In this document: positions 147 through 61,482 of the stretch, piece by piece
Numbering within the stretch: position 1 is the stretch's first letter
Layout: every line of letters starts with the position of its first letter
Assembly: GCA_025059875.1 (NCBI GenBank)
Contig: JANXCT010000009.1
Span: 1-64,000 of the forward strand
Length of the DNA stretch: 64,000 bases
From: Candidatus Kapaibacterium sp.
GTDB taxonomy: Bacteria; Bacteroidota; Ignavibacteria; Kapaibacteriales; HRBIN21
Direction: 5' to 3'
Made by a program: the position numbers and the translations under genes
The notes under the pieces: model-generated
Told to the model about the DNA's origin: nothing
The model's input: only the letters and a program-made list of their open reading frames with translations
Database searches by the model: none

Positions 147-1553
147 ATGGTACGGAGGAGCTCTATTGGAGCAACGGGACTTGCTATGGCGTGGCTGGTA
201 GTCACTGCCGCTGCCTTTGCGGCAGGTACTATCATCAAGCAGCGTCCACCGAGTAACCTACGGGAGTGTGTGGGCGATACTCTCATCTTGTCAGTGCAGG
301 CAGAACCTCCGCTTGGAGAGTCCGGGCTGAGCTATCAGTGGTACAAAGATGGTGTCCAGTTGGCGGACGGTGGCCGGATTAGTGGGGCCCAGACCAATAC
401 CCTGCGAATCGTTGGAGTGGTGCCGTCCGATGCTGGGGTCTATACGGTGGTTGTCACGACAGTGCCCTCTGGAGCGGCAGAGGAGGCACAAACCCAGGTA
501 GAGGTCGCCGAGGCGATTCAGATTTCCCAGCAGCCAGCAGCCCAGACGGTGTGCGAAGGACAACAGTTCAGCTTCTTGGTTCAGGCGACGGGGACGATCA
601 CAGGATATCAGTGGTACCACAATGGCACAATCGTCCCTGGGGCTGTGCAGGCGACGTACACGGCTACTGCTACAATTGCAGATACGGGGGAATGGTGGTG
701 TGTTATCATTGGCCCATGTGGGAATGTCATCTCTAACCGGGTGAGATTGCAGGTCAACGTTGGACCAAGGATCACGACTGCTCCGACTGCCACAGCAGTA
801 TGCCGGGGTGCGAGTTTCACACTGCAGGTGGAGGCAACGGGGACTGCTCCGTTGCAGTACCAGTGGTATCGGGATAATGTCCCAATCGCTGGGGCGACGC
901 AGCCTACGTATCAAGACGTAGCAGCCCAGACAGCTTCGTACTTCGTGGAGGTGCGGAACACCTGCGGAACGGTGCGAACCGATCCTGTCACGGTCCGCGT
1001 CAAGGAGCCGCCTCAGATCACGCAGCACCCACAAGGCGGGACCTTTGCCCCAGGGTCGCAGGTGACATTGAGTGTACAAGCAACAGGCGAACCTCCGCTG
1101 AGCTATCAGTGGTACCGAGATGGAGTCCCGCTGTCAGGGGCCACGAGCTCTACGTACGTGATTCCTAACATGGCCCGTTCGGACGAGGGTACTTACTTCT
1201 GCGTTGTGAGCAACGAATGTGGCTCAGATACTAGCGACAGGGTAGTGCTGCGGCTCACAGGTATTGTCGAGCAGGCGTCGCATGGAGGGAACATCCTGTG
1301 GGCAGTGGCGCCGCATCCGGTCAATGCAAGTGCTTCCATTCGATACCGCCTCCAAGAGGGTGGCTGGATGCGGCTGAGCATCTTGGATGTCTTCGGCCGA
1401 CCGATCGTTCTCCTGTCAGAGGGTGTCGTTGCAGCTGGAGAGTACAGCCAACGCTTGGACGTTGCAGCCCTGGGGCTTGCACCTGGTGCTTACATCTACC
1501 AGCTTGAGACTGCTCGAGGGGTTGTCCGGCAGCTCATGATCGTTGCACGGTGA
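147..1553 (+). CDS. Secreted Ig-like repeat protein with T9SS sorting domain
   Basis: Predicted 468-residue surface or secreted protein. A signal peptide (hydrophobic stretch ending near an AFA-A site) is followed by four Ig-like domains of about 85-90 residues. Each carries a YQWY core, and most have a cysteine pair spaced as in an Ig-fold disulphide. The last ~85 residues resemble a T9SS type A sorting domain (a PHPV start, a VFGRPI turn, a final Q-L-M-I-V-like strand). ATG 147 is chosen because AAGGAGGG (135-142) lies just upstream; a GTG at 105 in the same frame lies in the preceding terminator tail. A strong terminator follows. Ig repeats of this kind usually act in adhesion or as spacers; the ligand is unknown. 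Confidence 0.85.
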   Translation: MVRRSSIGATGLAMAWLVVTAAAFAAGTIIKQRPPSNLRECVGDTLILSVQAEPPLGESGLSYQWYKDGVQLADGGRISGAQTNTLRIVGVVPSDAGVYTVVVTTVPSGAAEEAQTQVEVAEAIQISQQPAAQTVCEGQQFSFLVQATGTITGYQWYHNGTIVPGAVQATYTATATIADTGEWWCVIIGPCGNVISNRVRLQVNVGPRITTAPTATAVCRGASFTLQVEATGTAPLQYQWYRDNVPIAGATQPTYQDVAAQTASYFVEVRNTCGTVRTDPVTVRVKEPPQITQHPQGGTFAPGSQVTLSVQATGEPPLSYQWYRDGVPLSGATSSTYVIPNMARSDEGTYFCVVSNECGSDTSDRVVLRLTGIVEQASHGGNILWAVAPHPVNASASIRYRLQEGGWMRLSILDVFGRPIVLLSEGVVAAGEYSQRLDVAALGLAPGAYIYQLETARGVVRQLMIVAR

Positions 1554-37900: not shown

Positions 37901-39211
37901 GTTGGGCCCGATGCTGATGCGTTCCGCGTAGAGCCAGCCTTCCTACAGCAAGTGCGAGAACGAGGCCTGGAAATTCAGCCGGGCCAGAGTGTCCAGGTCC
38001 CGGTCGTCTTCACAGCTCTTCGGATTGGTGAACACCGAGCGAACTTGCGGGTGATTTCGGACGCCCCGGAGACGCCGGAGCCTGAGCTCATTGGGCGTGG
38101 TATCGCACAGGGATTGGCTGCGACGGACTATGACTTTGGCAGGCACTTCGTGACGACCCGTGTAGAACGGCAGGCAGCGGTATATGTGCGGAATACCGGA
38201 TCGGCACGGGTCTACGTGGAGCGGATTGAAAAGGCAGAGGGAGATGTCGGCAACTTCGAGGTGCTGACGCCGCCGGGCTTCTGGATTGAGCCGCAGAGCG
38301 ACTATCCTGTAGACGTTGCCTTCTCCCCAGATGCAGAGCGGCGCTACCAGATGCGGATCCGGTACGTGACGAACATAGGAGAGGCGTACTCCACAGTCTT
38401 GGGCGAGGGGCGGCGTGTCTACGGGTTGGTGCGAATTGGGGAGTACCGCGCTGTTCCAGGGACAGAGCTAGAGTTGACGGTCGAGCTGACGCGCCACCCG
38501 AACGCCACGCTGCGCTCGGAGGATCGGGACATCACCGATGGAAGGGTGCAGGAGTTTGAGGTTCGGGTCTGGTATGACGATAGAATGCTGGAGCCGGTGT
38601 TGGATGTGGCTGCTATTCGAATGACGGGAACTCTGACAGAGGGCTGGCAGGTAGAGTACGTGCGGCCTCTTCCGAAGCACGTTCCTCCTAGGGGGGCGGA
38701 GCCGATGGCGGCCTTCCAGGTGAAGTTTACAGCAAAGCCAGACGCGACACCGTTGCGGTTAGAGCGAGAGGTACAACCGCTATTCCACTTCCGCGCACGG
38801 GCCTTCCTGGCACCGCTGGATCAGAGCTGGCTACCAGTTGAAATGGTGCCGTTGAATCGCCCATATGTTGTCGTCGATCGAGAACCTGGATTGGTGCGGC
38901 TTACAGTGCCGTGTGTGCAGAATCTCCGGCTGGTGCGTCTGAATCCGGTGGGCTATAGCCTACAACAGGTGGTACCGCAACCAGCACGTGGACAAGTACA
39001 GATACAGTACAGCATCGGCTACAGCGGCTGGGTGCGGCTGGAGCTGTTCAATGCGATGGGGCAGCGAGTGGCTATGCTGGTAGACCAGCCACAGGAGGCT
39101 GGAGAATACGAGCTGACGTTGGATACGCAACTCTTCCCCGCTGGAGTATACTACTATCGTCTAAGCTCTGGGCCATACGCAGAAACACGTCAGCTGCATA
39201 TCGTGAACTAG
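34994..39211 (+). CDS. Large T9SS surface protein: IgGFc-binding-like head, ASH repeats, cohesin-like domain
   Basis: Predicted 1405-residue secreted protein. ATG 34994 follows a strong AGGAGGGAG and gives a clean signal peptide (AALALLAGSHGFA). Residues ~25-515 resemble the IgGFc-binding N-terminal domain found in large Bacteroidota surface proteins. Then come at least four ASH/choice-of-anchor-D-like beta domains opening with DFG, near residues 603, 709, 937 and 1046. A cohesin-like domain (~1130-1290) precedes the T9SS type A sorting domain (~1317-1405, NAMGQRVAML and PAGVYYYRL). A perfect hairpin follows 23 bp after the stop. It is likely displayed or released; the binding target is unknown. 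Confidence 0.8.
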   Translation: MGAAFCSMVAALALLAGSHGFASERVELLGGREYWLSFPHSWIYPTETARGISALQLWVASREVATVQVYTNGGQVLYQQFQTQPKKTTVVAIPMDHMNVDAGVVADKGIRVVANKPIVVTGYVSFTISGEAFMCIPVEALGKRYYTLNLYQDCVGSEYRPAQILIIATRDNTVVRYYPTTETSDGTRAGQSKEIRLNRGQTYLIKAKIDARYNQDWRTDLTGTYIEASEPIAVISGHTKGSYPRYSCTMLGTPAHFMRNSLMDMMWPVELWGTMYVSAPIMYKNRPRNGVDIDDVGDLIRFVASEDGTIIEQLRQDGSQEWQQISPPLRRGQVFNITAQEHAAAYRSNKPVLVGQYGKAWRLAAVSPLPAKDEEEIQNPPRNGEGMLMCLTPRERWATYTTFYSPPGMDNFFMITFETDRMNDIYFDGVRLRNKFSGGIKPVRGTPYSYVVAIVPPGDHTIEGRNGAQFAAYAYGNLDLSKTGFAYGYPTGINYAIRCEDTVLIVDREECGNVRGQVEVRPLTAETECARIFSVALDSAVNYELVLPESFRPSYDRQTTFELRVVNPQEDAYARLEVIARSGKRVVKEYVYVAEAVAAEPTVVDFGIQAFERPVERSVVVRNPKPRQVVIKRLYLRANLEEFELVEPTNFPVVLQPAGQPGDRVTVRIRTTARVPEARVDSLYAELSCYPVPVAELRVRGSEPIMWVDDADFGNVPVGTERMRRVRIESRGQLPLEITAVEWADRTHFRTEGLLEALPLRLAPGQTYEFRVYYKPTVAGAEDRTRAVFTVNATKIKLHSDWRGTGIVANVAIEGYDWGGRRVADAYARLDDPNYGYRGRVVVSVTGNTTLDDVDVLVEPDPQSPGDVVAFHVDKTNLPRQLQPGAKVELVAYFKPTQERQYRARVVVRGYDNRELREAEDGLLGVGLQPHVDAEGRDFGTLMVGQSRQGVAPVYSRGSMVLTVRDLEIVGPDADAFRVEPAFLQQVRERGLEIQPGQSVQVPVVFTALRIGEHRANLRVISDAPETPEPELIGRGIAQGLAATDYDFGRHFVTTRVERQAAVYVRNTGSARVYVERIEKAEGDVGNFEVLTPPGFWIEPQSDYPVDVAFSPDAERRYQMRIRYVTNIGEAYSTVLGEGRRVYGLVRIGEYRAVPGTELELTVELTRHPNATLRSEDRDITDGRVQEFEVRVWYDDRMLEPVLDVAAIRMTGTLTEGWQVEYVRPLPKHVPPRGAEPMAAFQVKFTAKPDATPLRLEREVQPLFHFRARAFLAPLDQSWLPVEMVPLNRPYVVVDREPGLVRLTVPCVQNLRLVRLNPVGYSLQQVVPQPARGQVQIQYSIGYSGWVRLELFNAMGQRVAMLVDQPQEAGEYELTLDTQLFPAGVYYYRLSSGPYAETRQLHIVN

Positions 39212-55822: not shown

Positions 55823-56713
55823 TCATCGCTGGGAACGTCGTCGGCGCTGTGTTGGTGCCGGAGTTTCTGGGGGAACTGCAGGGCTGGGAGAGAGCTTCCT
55901 ACGTGCTGACTGATACTCCTCGAGACGGTGCCAGAGATTGATGTAGTGCAGCCCTTCCGTGACCGTACCGCCGAGCTGCAGGCTGAGTCGAATCTCTTGG
56001 GTTGTGTAGCTCCACACGGGGATGCCCTCCGTTGAGAGCAGCAGCCGTCCGAAGGAGTTGGTGACAGCACGGACAGCGAAGGCCGAATCTCGGATATACC
56101 AGCCGCTACCCGTCGTCGTGAACTGCACCTCCAGGCAGCGGTGGCCAAGGGTATCGCGCGGAAGGAAGGCACGGAGCAGGGCCGTCCGGGCAAAGCGCGG
56201 GGGCGGTGTCGCATTCTCCCAGAGGAGCAAGCTATCCTGCACTAACCACGACTCATGCGCGCGGATACAGCCATGGAGCGGCTGGAGGAATGGTAGCTGC
56301 AACACTCCCCCAGGGCAGACGACAGTGTTCTCTGGAGCATGCCCACTGAGGCGGGTTCCCAAGGTATCCACCTGCAGGACAACGGGTCGATGTTGGCACG
56401 GCGACACGGGCCGTAGGCTCTGCAGTGTATCCATGCGTTCCCGTGCCAGGAACTCCGTTGGCACCATCCGGAGCCAGAAGCTGCCGTCAGCGCCAACGGA
56501 GTCGCAGATGAGCACGAGCGTCTCGTACCGCTCCCGCACCAGCGGAGGCTGACCATAGATGAAGATGCTATCCTGCGCTTCCACGCGGTAGATAAGCGTA
56601 TCTCCCGGTTGGAAGCGGTAGCGGAGGCATACAGTATCGGGCAGAATTGGCAGTTGCGGGCTGCTGTGCGCCACCACAGCGCTGCTGACTAGCAACCACA
56701 GTCGCCAGCTCAT
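55823..56713 (-). CDS. Exported protein, third of three tandem paralogs
   Basis: Predicted 296-residue exported protein with a signal peptide (WRLWLLVSSAVVAHS). After it comes VCLRYRFQPGDTLIYRV, the diverged equivalent of LRYALQPGTxWTYEL in its two upstream neighbours, and FLPRDTLGHRCLEVQF matches their VVDTLGHRCARIRSE. The predicted fold is beta-rich, resembling the DUF6263-type group; function unknown. ATG 56713 overlaps the preceding stop as ATGA. It is 22 bp upstream of tolC, so it is co-transcribed with the exporter. Confidence 0.72.
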   Translation of the reverse strand: MSWRLWLLVSSAVVAHSSPQLPILPDTVCLRYRFQPGDTLIYRVEAQDSIFIYGQPPLVRERYETLVLICDSVGADGSFWLRMVPTEFLARERMDTLQSLRPVSPCQHRPVVLQVDTLGTRLSGHAPENTVVCPGGVLQLPFLQPLHGCIRAHESWLVQDSLLLWENATPPPRFARTALLRAFLPRDTLGHRCLEVQFTTTGSGWYIRDSAFAVRAVTNSFGRLLLSTEGIPVWSYTTQEIRLSLQLGGTVTEGLHYINLWHRLEEYQSARRKLSPSPAVPPETPAPTQRRRRSQR

Positions 56714-57612
56714 CGCTGACGGAGTACTACCTCCATTGTCTGCTCGGTCGTCCCCAGCGCCTCCGCTTGTCCACCAAATGCAAATGAGCCCTCCAACTGG
56801 AGGCGTCCTCGCTGGAAGATGGGAACCCCTCGGGAGAGCGGCGCGTAGGTGATGGTGACCCCGCTGCCAGTCATTTCTGTAGAGATCTGGCCAAACTGTG
56901 TGCGGGCCGTGAGGTGGATATTCAGCGACCGCAGCTCGGAGCGGATTCGGGCACAACGGTGGCCTAGAGTGTCCACCACCGCCTCCAGTGTGTGGGATAG
57001 ACTCACCCGATAGATGCTCGTCTGCTGTTCATCTCGGGTGGTATCGTGCCCCTCTTCCGTCCATGTGTGTCCCACGGAGATAGCTCGGTCCGGGAGAGGG
57101 AGGAACCATGTGAGCAGCCGACGCCGGCTACCGCGGAACATGTCCCTGCCAAGAGGTGCACTGCCAACCGAGCTCCAGAAGCTGCTGTCGGCTACTCGCC
57201 GCTCTACTGACAGTAGCTGGCCAGAAGGGCTGAGGGTGTACGTCGTTGCAATCCCCTGCGGCGAGGAGAAGACCGTGTCGTAGATGAGGCCCACGTCCTT
57301 TGCCTTCATGGAGATGGACAGCGAGTCCACGACTTCACGCAGTATGAGGCTATCCGGTGAGGAGTGGAGCACCGTGTAGCGAATAGGCATCCGCACAGTT
57401 GCTGTGACCGTTGTTCCTTCGGGGTTTCCGATGCCCATGAAGCTCTGGGTCATTTCAATCCGGTTCTCCAGCTCGTAGGTCCACTCGGTACCAGGCTGGA
57501 GGGCATAGCGGAGCGTTACGGTATTCCGTTGGGATGCAGTTGGGCGCTGTTCGCACCAGAGGAGGCTGGCCATGGTGCAGACAAGGGCAAGATGGGCGCT
57601 GAAATGTCGCAT
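56710..57612 (-). CDS. Exported protein, second of three tandem paralogs
   Basis: Predicted 300-residue exported beta-rich protein. A signal peptide (about 1-24) precedes VTLRYALQPGTEWTYEL. The hallmark SHTLEAVVDTLGHRCARIRSE is nearly identical to the first paralog, as are the VGHTWTE and REVVDSL segments. ATG 57612 gives the signal peptide. The upstream 238 bp (57613-57850) hold no gene and may carry a promoter. Role unknown; the link to the exporter is positional. Confidence 0.75.
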   Translation of the reverse strand: MRHFSAHLALVCTMASLLWCEQRPTASQRNTVTLRYALQPGTEWTYELENRIEMTQSFMGIGNPEGTTVTATVRMPIRYTVLHSSPDSLILREVVDSLSISMKAKDVGLIYDTVFSSPQGIATTYTLSPSGQLLSVERRVADSSFWSSVGSAPLGRDMFRGSRRRLLTWFLPLPDRAISVGHTWTEEGHDTTRDEQQTSIYRVSLSHTLEAVVDTLGHRCARIRSELRSLNIHLTARTQFGQISTEMTGSGVTITYAPLSRGVPIFQRGRLQLEGSFAFGGQAEALGTTEQTMEVVLRQR

Positions 57613-57850
57613 GGAGCTTCGGGAGATATGGCACATGCAGTGGGCGCAAAATACGCCAGACAGAGCGTCGGAGAACGCCGGGGCTTGTACTTGTGGCTCT
57701 GCTCTGGGACTCAAGGCCTTGGTCCCTGCCATCCCAAACTGGAATCCCGGTATCGGCGCTGAGCAGTGGGGAAGCAGTAGTTCTACCGTGCTGCCATACT
57801 TACTGCCAGACTGGTACGCACGGGTCAGGGATGTCGGCTGCCCGTGCTGC

Positions 57851-58741
57851 TCATCGCCGACGGAGCTGTATCCTCGTGCGCTCCTCAAAGGTTTCGAAGA
57901 CCTCCACCTGTCCACTAACCACGAAGCCACCTTCCACGTCCAGCGACTCTTGCTGGGCCAGAGGGAGGCCGTTGGAGAGTTGGACGTAGGTGAGCGCGAC
58001 ACCACGCCCGGAGAGCTCCATCGAGAAGTCGTCGCCGAAGTCCGTCCGCGCCTTGGAGGAGAGCTTCAGCGAATCTATCTCGGAGCGGATGCGGGCGCAG
58101 CGATGGCCTAACGTGTCCACAACCGCCTCCAGCGTATGGCGGACGTCGGCACTCCAGACCGTCTGTTCGTCCTCTCTCTGGATGGAGTCTCGCCACACTT
58201 CGCTCCATGTGTGGCCCACAGGGATGGCCTGTGCGGGGTAGGAGAAGAACCACGAGGGCCAGCGACGTCGGTTAATCAGGACGCTCCTTCCCCCTTCCTC
58301 GAAGCCCAGCCAGCGCCAGAGGAGGCTGTCCCGAACGTTCGATGTCGCGGATACAGGGCCTCCATGGAGGGTGAGAGTGTGGGTGATTTCTACCCCCCGC
58401 GGCGAGGCGATCGTGTCTGTATATCTGGCCCCTTCGACCACCACAGAGGTGACCAGGGAGTCTACGACCTCCCGAAGGACGAAGGTGTCCCGTGTCGCGG
58501 AGAGCAAGGTGTAGTGGAGGGGGGCGTGCCAAATCGTCGCGACTGGCCTCCCCTCTGAACCCGTCACAGCGGAGTGCCGGACCTCTTCATAGCGATAGCT
58601 CAGCTCGTAGGTCCACTGGGTACCGGGCTGGAGGGCATAGCGGAGGAGCACGGTCGCCTCACGGCTCTGCCGAGGCTGACCCCATCCGAGAGAACCAACA
58701 ACAGCAAGGCCGAGGACGGCACGGACAGCAGTGTGTGGCAT
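57851..58741 (-). CDS. Exported protein, first of three tandem paralogs
   Basis: Predicted 296-residue exported beta-rich protein with a signal peptide ending near GWGQ. It shares LLRYALQPGTQWTYEL, LREVVDSL, VGHTWSE and RHTLEAVVDTLGHRCARIRSE with the second paralog. ATG 58741 is chosen for the signal peptide; an in-frame start at 58807 is less likely because it falls in the terminator hairpin of the fibre gene. It opens the seven-gene run ending in the MacB-like permease. Confidence 0.75.
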   Translation of the reverse strand: MPHTAVRAVLGLAVVGSLGWGQPRQSREATVLLRYALQPGTQWTYELSYRYEEVRHSAVTGSEGRPVATIWHAPLHYTLLSATRDTFVLREVVDSLVTSVVVEGARYTDTIASPRGVEITHTLTLHGGPVSATSNVRDSLLWRWLGFEEGGRSVLINRRRWPSWFFSYPAQAIPVGHTWSEVWRDSIQREDEQTVWSADVRHTLEAVVDTLGHRCARIRSEIDSLKLSSKARTDFGDDFSMELSGRGVALTYVQLSNGLPLAQQESLDVEGGFVVSGQVEVFETFEERTRIQLRRR

Positions 58742-58806
58742 GGGGTCCCTTAAGGATTGGACACTGCAGCAGACGCCAAAATACGGCAGGGGTTCGGAAA
58801 GACACA

Positions 58807-58835
58807 TCGGGGCGCACGGCTACCGTGCGCCCCGA
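58807..58835 (-). terminator. Hairpin terminator of the fibre gene
   Basis: Perfect 13-bp stem (58807-58819 and 58823-58835) with a 3-nt loop, 27 bp after the fibre stop on the minus strand. The downstream tail on that strand is TGTGTCTTTCC, a weak T tract. The same GTGCGCCCC core appears again at 58850-58858. Confidence 0.7.
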
Positions 58836-58862: not shown

Positions 58863-61427
58863 TTACCGCACGAGCGTCATCTGCCGTGTGGCCACCACGC
58901 GCCCGTCCAGCACCAGGCTGTACTCGTACACCCCGGCACTCAACAGCCGCATCTCCAGCGTCACCTGCCCATGGGCCCCGCGCTCGGGCAACTCTACCCG
59001 CCGCAGCTCCCGACCCCGCGAGTCCCGCACCACTAGCTCGGCCCGACCGACACCAGCCGGGATGTAGTACGGCACTGTCGTCGTCCCATCATGCGGGTTC
59101 GGGATGTTCTGCCCCAGCCAGGCATCGTGAATCTGCGTGCCGCCGGTCTCCCCGCCTCGGCCGCCCCGCTCCTGCAGTAGTTGCTCCACCAGCAGCCGCA
59201 GCCGAGCGACTTCCTCCTCCATCTGCCCCACCTTCTCCCGCAAGCTCTCGTTCCGCCGGTGCTCCTCCTTGAGTGCCTCCACCAGCAGCGCCGTCAGCCG
59301 ACTGTAGTCCATCCCCAGCAATTCTCCCGTCTGTGGGTCGCGGTCCACCACCTGCGGCACCACCGGCGCTACCTCCTCCAGGATGAATCCAATGTCCTCC
59401 CGCCCGCCATGCTCCGGCTTCCACCGGAATTCCACCCCCCGCAGCCGCAGCACCTTCCCCAGCGCCTCCCCGATGGGTCGGACCTCGTCCTTGTACCGCA
59501 GCGAGGAGTAACTCGCGTAGGCGTTCGCCCGAATGCGCCCGACCCCGGGAGTGCTGCTATTCGGCAGGTCCACCCGGTAGCTCGCTCCGTTGCTCGGGGA
59601 GAAGAAGAGCCGCCCATCCGCCGTCAGGCGCATCTTGACCGTGTCCGTGCCACTTCCGGCATTCGTGCGGAACTGAATCTCCGCATTCTCATTCTGCCGG
59701 AGCTGGACGTCGTTGCCGGAGAGCTCTATCTCAAACCCATCCCCGCTGCTGCTCCCCGTTGTGCTGCTGGTTACCTGGATGTTTGAGGAGTGCACATGCA
59801 GCTTCGCCTGCGGAGTGCTTGTCCCAATGCCCAACCGCTTATTCGTGTTGTCCCAGAAGAGGTTCTCATCCCCGATGAGCCGATTATTGGCATCGTCCCA
59901 GAAGGCCACCCGACCCGTGCCATACGTGTCAAACGCTGCGTCGTGGACCTGCGGGTCCATCTCAGTTCCAGAGCCAATATCGGTCCACGTGGGTACTCCG
60001 TCCACCGTGGCCAACACCTGCCCGTTGCTGCCTGCCGCCAGCTTGCTCACCGCTATGGCGGCACTCGCACTGATGTCCGCATCCACGATCGTCCCGTCCT
60101 GAATCTTCCCGCTCGTCACCGCCCCATCCTGGATGTGCCCCGTTGCAACAGCCCCACTGGCAAGCTCCGTGCTGCCCACAACCCCACTCTTCAACTGGAT
60201 GTCCAACGCATCGTACGTCCCGCTGACCGTCGCATCGGAGGCTGCTGCAGCACTGAATGAGGTCATCGTGGTTACATCATTACTGGCGTCGGTGTCCCCT
60301 GTGTTCGTAATCGTGATGCCTGTGGCCGTGTTGCTGATGGCTATCCCCGCCCCAGCGCTCAGTCCCACTGGCTGCCAGGCCGTGGCGCTCTGGTTCCAGC
60401 GCAGCAACTGCCCGTCAGCTGTACCGTTCGGAAGTGCGACCGAGGCCCACTCCAGGGTGGCCGTGGTGCCGCTGACCGAGGCAATTCGCAGGACCTGCCC
60501 CGCCGTGCCTACTGTCGCCGGCAGCTCGTACACAATGTCGCTCCCCTGGTCCTGCGCCCGCAGGGCCGTGTAGTTCGTCCCCGCCCCCGAACGCTCGTAC
60601 AACCGCAGCTCCGAGGCCTGGTTGCGTACGTTGTACAGCCACAGGTCCACGTCCACAAAGGCCGCAATGTTGCTGTGCGCACTCAGATCCGTCTGTGTCG
60701 TGCTCGTCTGCCCGCTGAAGCCGAAGCTGCGTTTGCCGACCTTCAGGTTGAACCCGCCTGGGATGGCAGAGAGAGAGTCACTGGCGTGGTTGAGCCAGCC
60801 CCCGCCGACGGTGCTGTAGCCGCCGCTGGCGGTGTTGGAGTAGCCCCCGCCGACGGTGCTGTAGGTGCCGTTGGCGGTGTTGGACAAGCCCCCGCCGACG
60901 GTGCTGTACCATCTGCTGGCAGTGTTGGAGTAGCCCCCGCCGACGGTGCTGTAGTGGCCGCTGGCGGTGTTGGAGGAGCCCCCGCCGATGACACTGTAGT
61001 CACCGCTGGCAACCTGCGCGGCAGCGGTGCGCGCACTCTGCAGGTCCACCGCATGCAGGCCGCGTGTGTTCCCACCAGCATCCCGCTGGATGCTCCAGCC
61101 TGGGGCTATGGTGCCCGGCAGGTTCAGAATCAACGATGCCTGGTTGTTGACCTGCAGCTCCAGCCGGTTGTTGTCCAGCGTCCCTACAAACGCTGCTGCC
61201 CCGGCCTGCAGCCCAATGTTGCCCGCCACTACCAGGCGCTGGCCCGGCGCCGTCAGCCCGATACCCACGTTCCCGTTGTCGAGAATCCGCATCCGCTCGG
61301 TGTTGTTGGTGATCAGCCGCAGGGGCTGAGCATTCGTGGAGCCCAGCACTTCGGTTCCAGTTAGCGAATTCCCCGTCAGACTCCAGTTCTGCCCCCATGC
61401 CGGGAAGGCAGCCGCAAGCAGCGCCAC
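58863..61427 (-). CDS. Fibre-like protein: YadA-type head repeats, S74 chaperone domain, T9SS tail
   Basis: Predicted 854-residue secreted fibre. After a hydrophobic start and a tail-fibre-like region ([19 protein letters not shown]) come about five 15-residue [13 protein letters not shown]-type repeats, as in trimeric YadA heads. A Gly/Thr/Ser-rich shaft follows. A peptidase S74 (endosialidase-type) chaperone domain starts at SSLRYK, with Ser (59505-59507) and Lys (59490-59492) spaced as in the known self-cleaving dyad, then a coiled coil. A T9SS sorting domain ends the protein. GTG 61427 is the only usable start in frame, but a better signal peptide lies one frame over (start 61482), suggesting a 1-nt frameshift near 61443. 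Confidence 0.78.
60786..61010 (-). repeat. Five tandem 45-bp repeats encoding YadA-type head motifs
   Basis: About five 45-bp units encode SxxYSTVGGGxSNTA. The middle three copies are nearly identical in DNA; the edges are diverged. They form the head of the fibre protein and could vary in number by slippage or recombination. Confidence 0.8.
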
Positions 61428-61482
61428 ACTCCATAGCAGAACTCAGTAGACCATGGTTGGACCTCACGTTGTGGTTCAACAT

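Follow-up and report, generated by a model that had tools for sequence, protein, structure and literature searches.

A fibre gene in the window (the whole stretch of 64,000 nucleotides analysed here) joins a chaperone domain of the Peptidase_S74 type to a C-terminal domain of the kind that sorts cargo to the type IX secretion system (T9SS). The fused architecture is real and recurrent, and it probably acts as a cassette for assembly and export that then removes itself. The reading we favour, with some reserve, is that the gene product is a secreted and probably trimeric adhesin-like surface fibre with a removable C-terminal cassette of S74 domain, coil and sorting domain, from which the fibre would be freed by a cut at the S74 dyad.

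Domains of the fibre protein

The 854-aa protein consists, in order, of YadA-like repeats, a beta-rich shaft, Peptidase_S74, a 49-residue helix and a C-terminal beta-sandwich. The features, all on the minus strand, are as follows.

58863..61427 (-): fibre ORF, 854 aa from GTG 61427 (ORF list and PF13884 match)
61389..61442 (-): signal-peptide-like stretch, 18 residues, with no charged N-region in frame and TGA immediately upstream
60771..60995 (-): five 15-residue YadA-head-like repeats (direct reading of the sequence)
59508..60770 (-): beta-rich fibre shaft, ending at the predicted scissile bond Tyr640/Ser641 (sequence and alignment to solved S74 domains)
59346..59507 (-): Peptidase_S74 intramolecular chaperone (PF13884; Ser and Lys invariant in fused relatives; match to the MYRF ICA)
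59505-59507 (-): catalytic Ser641 (alignment to solved S74 domains)
59490-59492 (-): catalytic Lys646 (same alignment)
59160..59306 (-): 49-residue helix, presumed trimeric coiled coil (AlphaFold2 helix, residues 70-118 of the 216-aa model)
58866..59132 (-): T9SS-type C-terminal sorting domain of a divergent subtype, Ig-like beta-sandwich (own-genome profile; model matches)

The S74 domain matches PF13884 at residues 641-694 with 42.3 bits, above the curated cut-off of 22 (E=9.5e-11, Pfam). Comparison with solved S74 structures using a profile built from nine relatives identified the long tail fibre distal subunit 6f45 (E=1.9e-12), MYRF 7dc3 (E=2.3e-10) and the tail fibre 8jov (E=5.5e-8). Ser641 and Lys646, spaced by +5 in the motif SSLRYK at the start of the domain, align with the dyad of MYRF 7dc3 and of the phage S74 structures. 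The earlier note had taken the Ser and Lys of this motif to be conserved and had named misplacement of the dyad as what would speak against it; the profile alignment puts both residues on the catalytic positions. In MYRF the equivalent residues are Ser587 and Lys592, which correspond to S911 and K916 of endoNF; cleavage is lost in the S587A and K592A mutants (PMC8326128). The cut is thus predicted to fall before Ser641, between Tyr640 and Ser641. In an AlphaFold2 model of the last three domains (S74, helix and beta-sandwich; 216 aa, single chain, mean pLDDT 87.1), the best Foldseek match of the S74 part is the MYRF ICA.

The C-terminal tail is modelled as an Ig-like beta-sandwich with a pLDDT of about 90. 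It has no match in NCBIfam at E<=1, TIGR04183 included, no sorting-domain family of Pfam matches it, and the fibre gene is absent among the 28 TIGR04183 matches of the genome at E<=0.001. By the curated test, the tail thus falls outside TIGR04183. However, it reaches 39.9 bits with a profile built from 19 of the genome's own sorting domains, compared with 10.6 bits for the best of 2000 shuffles. The tail occupies the extreme C-terminus and carries a PNP motif and a ..LVR end, as do the sorting domains of the genome. Its model matches the C-terminal domains of PorZ, PorU and mirolase at Z 8.7-9.3, a range in which generic Ig folds score alike. The placing of a T9SS sorting domain after S74, proposed earlier, therefore stands as kinship to the genome's own sorting domains and not as membership of the curated family. 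The same genome encodes SprA (931 bits) and PorU (708 bits). Elsewhere in the window, TIGR04183 matches lie at 38972-39193 and 1308-1541 (+), the one at 1308-1541 below the curated cut-off.

The N-terminus is less regular. The start at 61482 given in the earlier note is an ATG in a different frame; the ORF in the correct frame starts at GTG 61427, and the PF13884 match falls within an open frame of 859 aa. An in-frame TGA at 61445-61443 directly precedes the hydrophobic signal-peptide-like stretch, so that the N-terminus may be frameshifted, and the listed start yields a signal peptide without a charged N-region. Signal peptides are complete in relatives. The irregularity may reflect a frameshift, an assembly error or sequencing indel, or real damage; because the source assembly is a draft of 33 contigs, a sequencing indel is possible.

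The ORFs around the fibre gene, read from the ORF list, are PEP carboxykinase-like, efflux-operon-like and secreted paralogues. The paralogues adjoin the fibre gene in tandem at 55823-58807 (-); two carry the motif RYALQPGTxWTYEL and a third is related. A prophage origin of the gene was rejected: the neighbouring ORFs look cellular, and 80 viral relatives align at most to residue 124 of the 216-residue query, before the sorting domain.

Fused and split forms in Bacteroidota

S74 was found in 107 of 395 sampled genomes of the phylum. Among 92 distinct S74 proteins, from loci picked regardless of their tails, nine (about 10%, the window protein included) carry a sorting domain, and S74 followed by a sorting domain is a recurrent minority architecture in Bacteroidota. 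The sorting domain is absent from the majority of S74 proteins in the phylum, which means that S74 is not dependent on the T9SS. The search for such architectures that the earlier note suggested thus yielded further cases, in several genera of the window's order and in other families, and uniqueness to the window gene was rejected. Named relatives are Candidatus Kapaibacterium SKYG35, Bacterium HR21 and KatS3mg039/040, Kapabacteria-type genomes which, like the source genome, we take to be from hot springs. None of 86 viral S74 proteins examined has a sorting-domain tail. The S74-linked sorting domains may form a subtype of their own across the phylum, although the scores are only suggestive: outside the closest lineages, 17 of 20 sorting domains score higher with the S74-linked than with the generic profile, most of these 20 loci having come from a query that contained the S74-linked sorting domain, and 8 of 9 do so in the set picked by S74 alone, to which the window protein belongs.

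Further S74 genes occur in the source genome. A second fibre on contig C4 (L002 1750-2100) also has the motif SSLRYK and ends after the coil, its sorting domain surviving only as a degenerate, out-of-frame remnant; L191 of SKYG35 resembles this copy in the part that precedes the repeats, and its sorting domain is intact. A third S74 gene on contig C6 (L003) has the motif SSRDKK and no sorting domain in frame or after it, in a stretch with a run of N. Contig C8 breaks at its end (L215, 72615-72686) inside another S74-type sorting-domain gene, which adjoins a TonB-receptor-like gene, a gene order shared with L219; the assembly has probably lost another copy here.

The catalytic residues differ between two forms of the module. 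Every one of the 33 distinct fused proteins, in which a fibre precedes S74 and the sorting domain, retains Ser and Lys, although these include paralogues and near relatives and are therefore not 33 independent observations. In contrast, five free-standing short proteins (open frames of 249-310 aa), built of a signal peptide, an S74-like domain, a coil and a sorting domain, have all lost the Ser, which is replaced by Glu (3) or Ala (2); the Lys position holds Arg (3) or Lys (2). Their positions, by locus, are as follows.

L196:1529-2164, L197:1076-1717, L199:1383-2159, L200:4917-5684, L203:4068-4706: short Ser-less proteins

The S74 part of the short proteins has a dN/dS of 0.08-0.09 in the two pairs compared, and this purifying selection indicates that their S74 part is not simply decaying. 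The five form a single clade in the S74 tree, so the loss of Ser probably counts as one evolutionary event rather than five, kept in two families. Over all pairs compared, dN/dS runs from about 0.05 to 0.31 in S74 and from about 0.07 to 0.20 in the sorting domain, which places both domains under purifying selection. Given that the dyad is kept in the fused proteins, whereas the short ones lack Ser yet are still selected against change, self-cleavage probably works in the fused form. The sorting domains cluster in the tree by lineage and not by fused or short type, and between L193 and L198 the sorting domain has a dS of 0.05 and the S74 domain one of 2.2; together these point to recombination or gene conversion.

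Each of the five short genes begins no more than about 45 nt from the stop codon of an upstream fibre gene, in which profile searches found neither S74 nor a sorting domain. In two genomes of another family, a small secreted protein of coil and sorting domain without S74 (L069:1216-1893 and L071:1498-2175) sits about 60-70 nt after a fibre gene without a sorting domain. These arrangements suggest that the short proteins may be in-trans export adaptors for the neighbouring fibres. The three split-pair fibres compared terminate in their own beta-rich domain and not in the usual S74 entry segment; a model of such a fibre end without sorting domain had no structural match at E<=0.001, and its best matches were mostly phage tail fibres and tailspikes. 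It is a tentative possibility that in the split form the Ser-less protein acts as a non-covalent in-trans T9SS adaptor for a trimeric fibre lacking a sorting domain; the module's second form would then be the fused, self-cutting fibre seen in the window.

Proposed order of assembly, export and cleavage

We infer trimerisation, T9SS export, the cut and its timing as follows. Sec export would come first, and the sorting domain would then bring the protein to SprA. The coil and the S74 domain would gather three chains, and after folding of the trimer a cut before Ser641 by the Ser641/Lys646 dyad would free the fibre from both the chaperone and the sorting domain. As the sorting domain lies at the end of a self-cutting chaperone, the cut should remove chaperone and export tag together. 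The simplest order would be export of monomers, trimerisation at the surface and then the cut. That the cut has to follow export, as the earlier note argued, is a fair deduction from this layout; however, it is not the sole order, since the Ser-less split proteins beside fibres hint that the module could work without a covalent link as well. A fibre already cut might then still travel with its docked chaperone.

Cleavage before export is the chief alternative to this order. The trimer would fold and cut in the periplasm, and the trimer of chaperone, coil and sorting domain would stay docked as a non-covalent T9SS tag. The split pairs lend themselves to this order: in five genomes a Ser-less S74 and sorting-domain protein follows a fibre without both domains, a coil and sorting-domain protein without S74 is likewise placed in two more, and in G398 the short protein (L199) was found with no intact fused fibre in the same search. 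However, the distinct beta-rich ends of the three split-pair fibres compared differ from the segment that normally enters S74, and the phage T5 chaperone is described as released after its cut (PMC4690869); we consider this order rather unlikely. More doubtful still is that S74 stays uncut in vivo as a trimer cap, with PorU removing the sorting domain at the linker (a GET/GG-like site) and anchoring the fibre C-terminus. PorU is present, and its loose motif, T/E/D/N followed by G/A/S (PMC10202324), can be matched in the linker that joins the coil to the sorting domain, but this motif is very permissive, and an uncut S74 accords poorly with a dyad that is invariant in all fused proteins examined and whose Ser is lost where nothing is left to cut.

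Alternatively, the window copy could be decaying while its family lives on, with a start broken by the TGA before the signal-peptide stretch much as the C4 paralogue has lost its sorting domain beyond the coil. This has some plausibility but stays the lesser prospect: the remainder of the 854-aa frame is intact, its S74 and sorting domains have a dN/dS of about 0.15 against L191, and the draft assembly leaves room for an indel. The tail could instead be a structural Ig-like domain of a fibre base or anchor and no export signal, as the missed curated T9SS model and the many unrelated Ig-like domains that match its model equally well would allow. The score with own-genome sorting domains far above shuffles, the C-terminal position with its PNP motif and ..LVR end, and the presence of SprA and PorU all stand against this, which makes it very improbable.

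Relation to known systems and meaning

Phage S74 tailspikes and fibres (endoNF, T5 pb1 and the GA-1 neck appendage) share with the window fibre the chaperone domain, the +5 dyad spacing and the cut before Ser, the cut of the window fibre being predicted, but none of the 86 viral S74 proteins examined has its sorting domain. The equivalents of Ser587 and Lys592 of the MYRF ICA are found in the window fibre; unlike it, MYRF is a eukaryotic membrane-bound transcription factor without an export domain (PMC8326128). PMC10769870 reports that the S74-group MAT fibre Bd3182 of the free-living bacterium Bdellovibrio was shown experimentally to cut itself and that the family has a conserved beta-rich domain of about 130 aa after the signal peptide. 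Compared by the S74 part alone, the MAT fibres, which have a signal peptide where the window fibre has a signal-peptide-like stretch, resemble it in being encoded by a bacterium, with a beta-rich shaft and an S74 domain with Ser and Lys. However, in the passages on them their S74 is terminal and no T9SS sorting domain is described, whereas the window fibre has a tail beyond S74. Relative to T9SS type A cargo (TIGR04183), the tail is a related Ig-like C-terminal domain but falls below the curated profile. In ordinary T9SS cargo the sorting domain is taken off by PorU; in the window fibre it would also be lost through the S74 cut.

A literature search found no paper linking peptidase S74 with type IX secretion in a relevant way and, by title, none on piggyback export of T9SS cargo. 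A bacterial self-cutting S74 fibre is already known from Bdellovibrio; a T9SS version was not found in the literature searched.

If the favoured reading is correct, the T9SS would deliver a trimeric phage-like fibre, and export signals would be discarded by the cargo itself and not only by PorU. The fused and split forms amount to an experiment of nature: the cutting Ser persists where a cut can be made and is gone where nothing is left to be cut. They would make testable whether the T9SS moves single chains that trimerise only after export or trimers that have already folded, and whether a sorting domain is able to act without a covalent link to its cargo.
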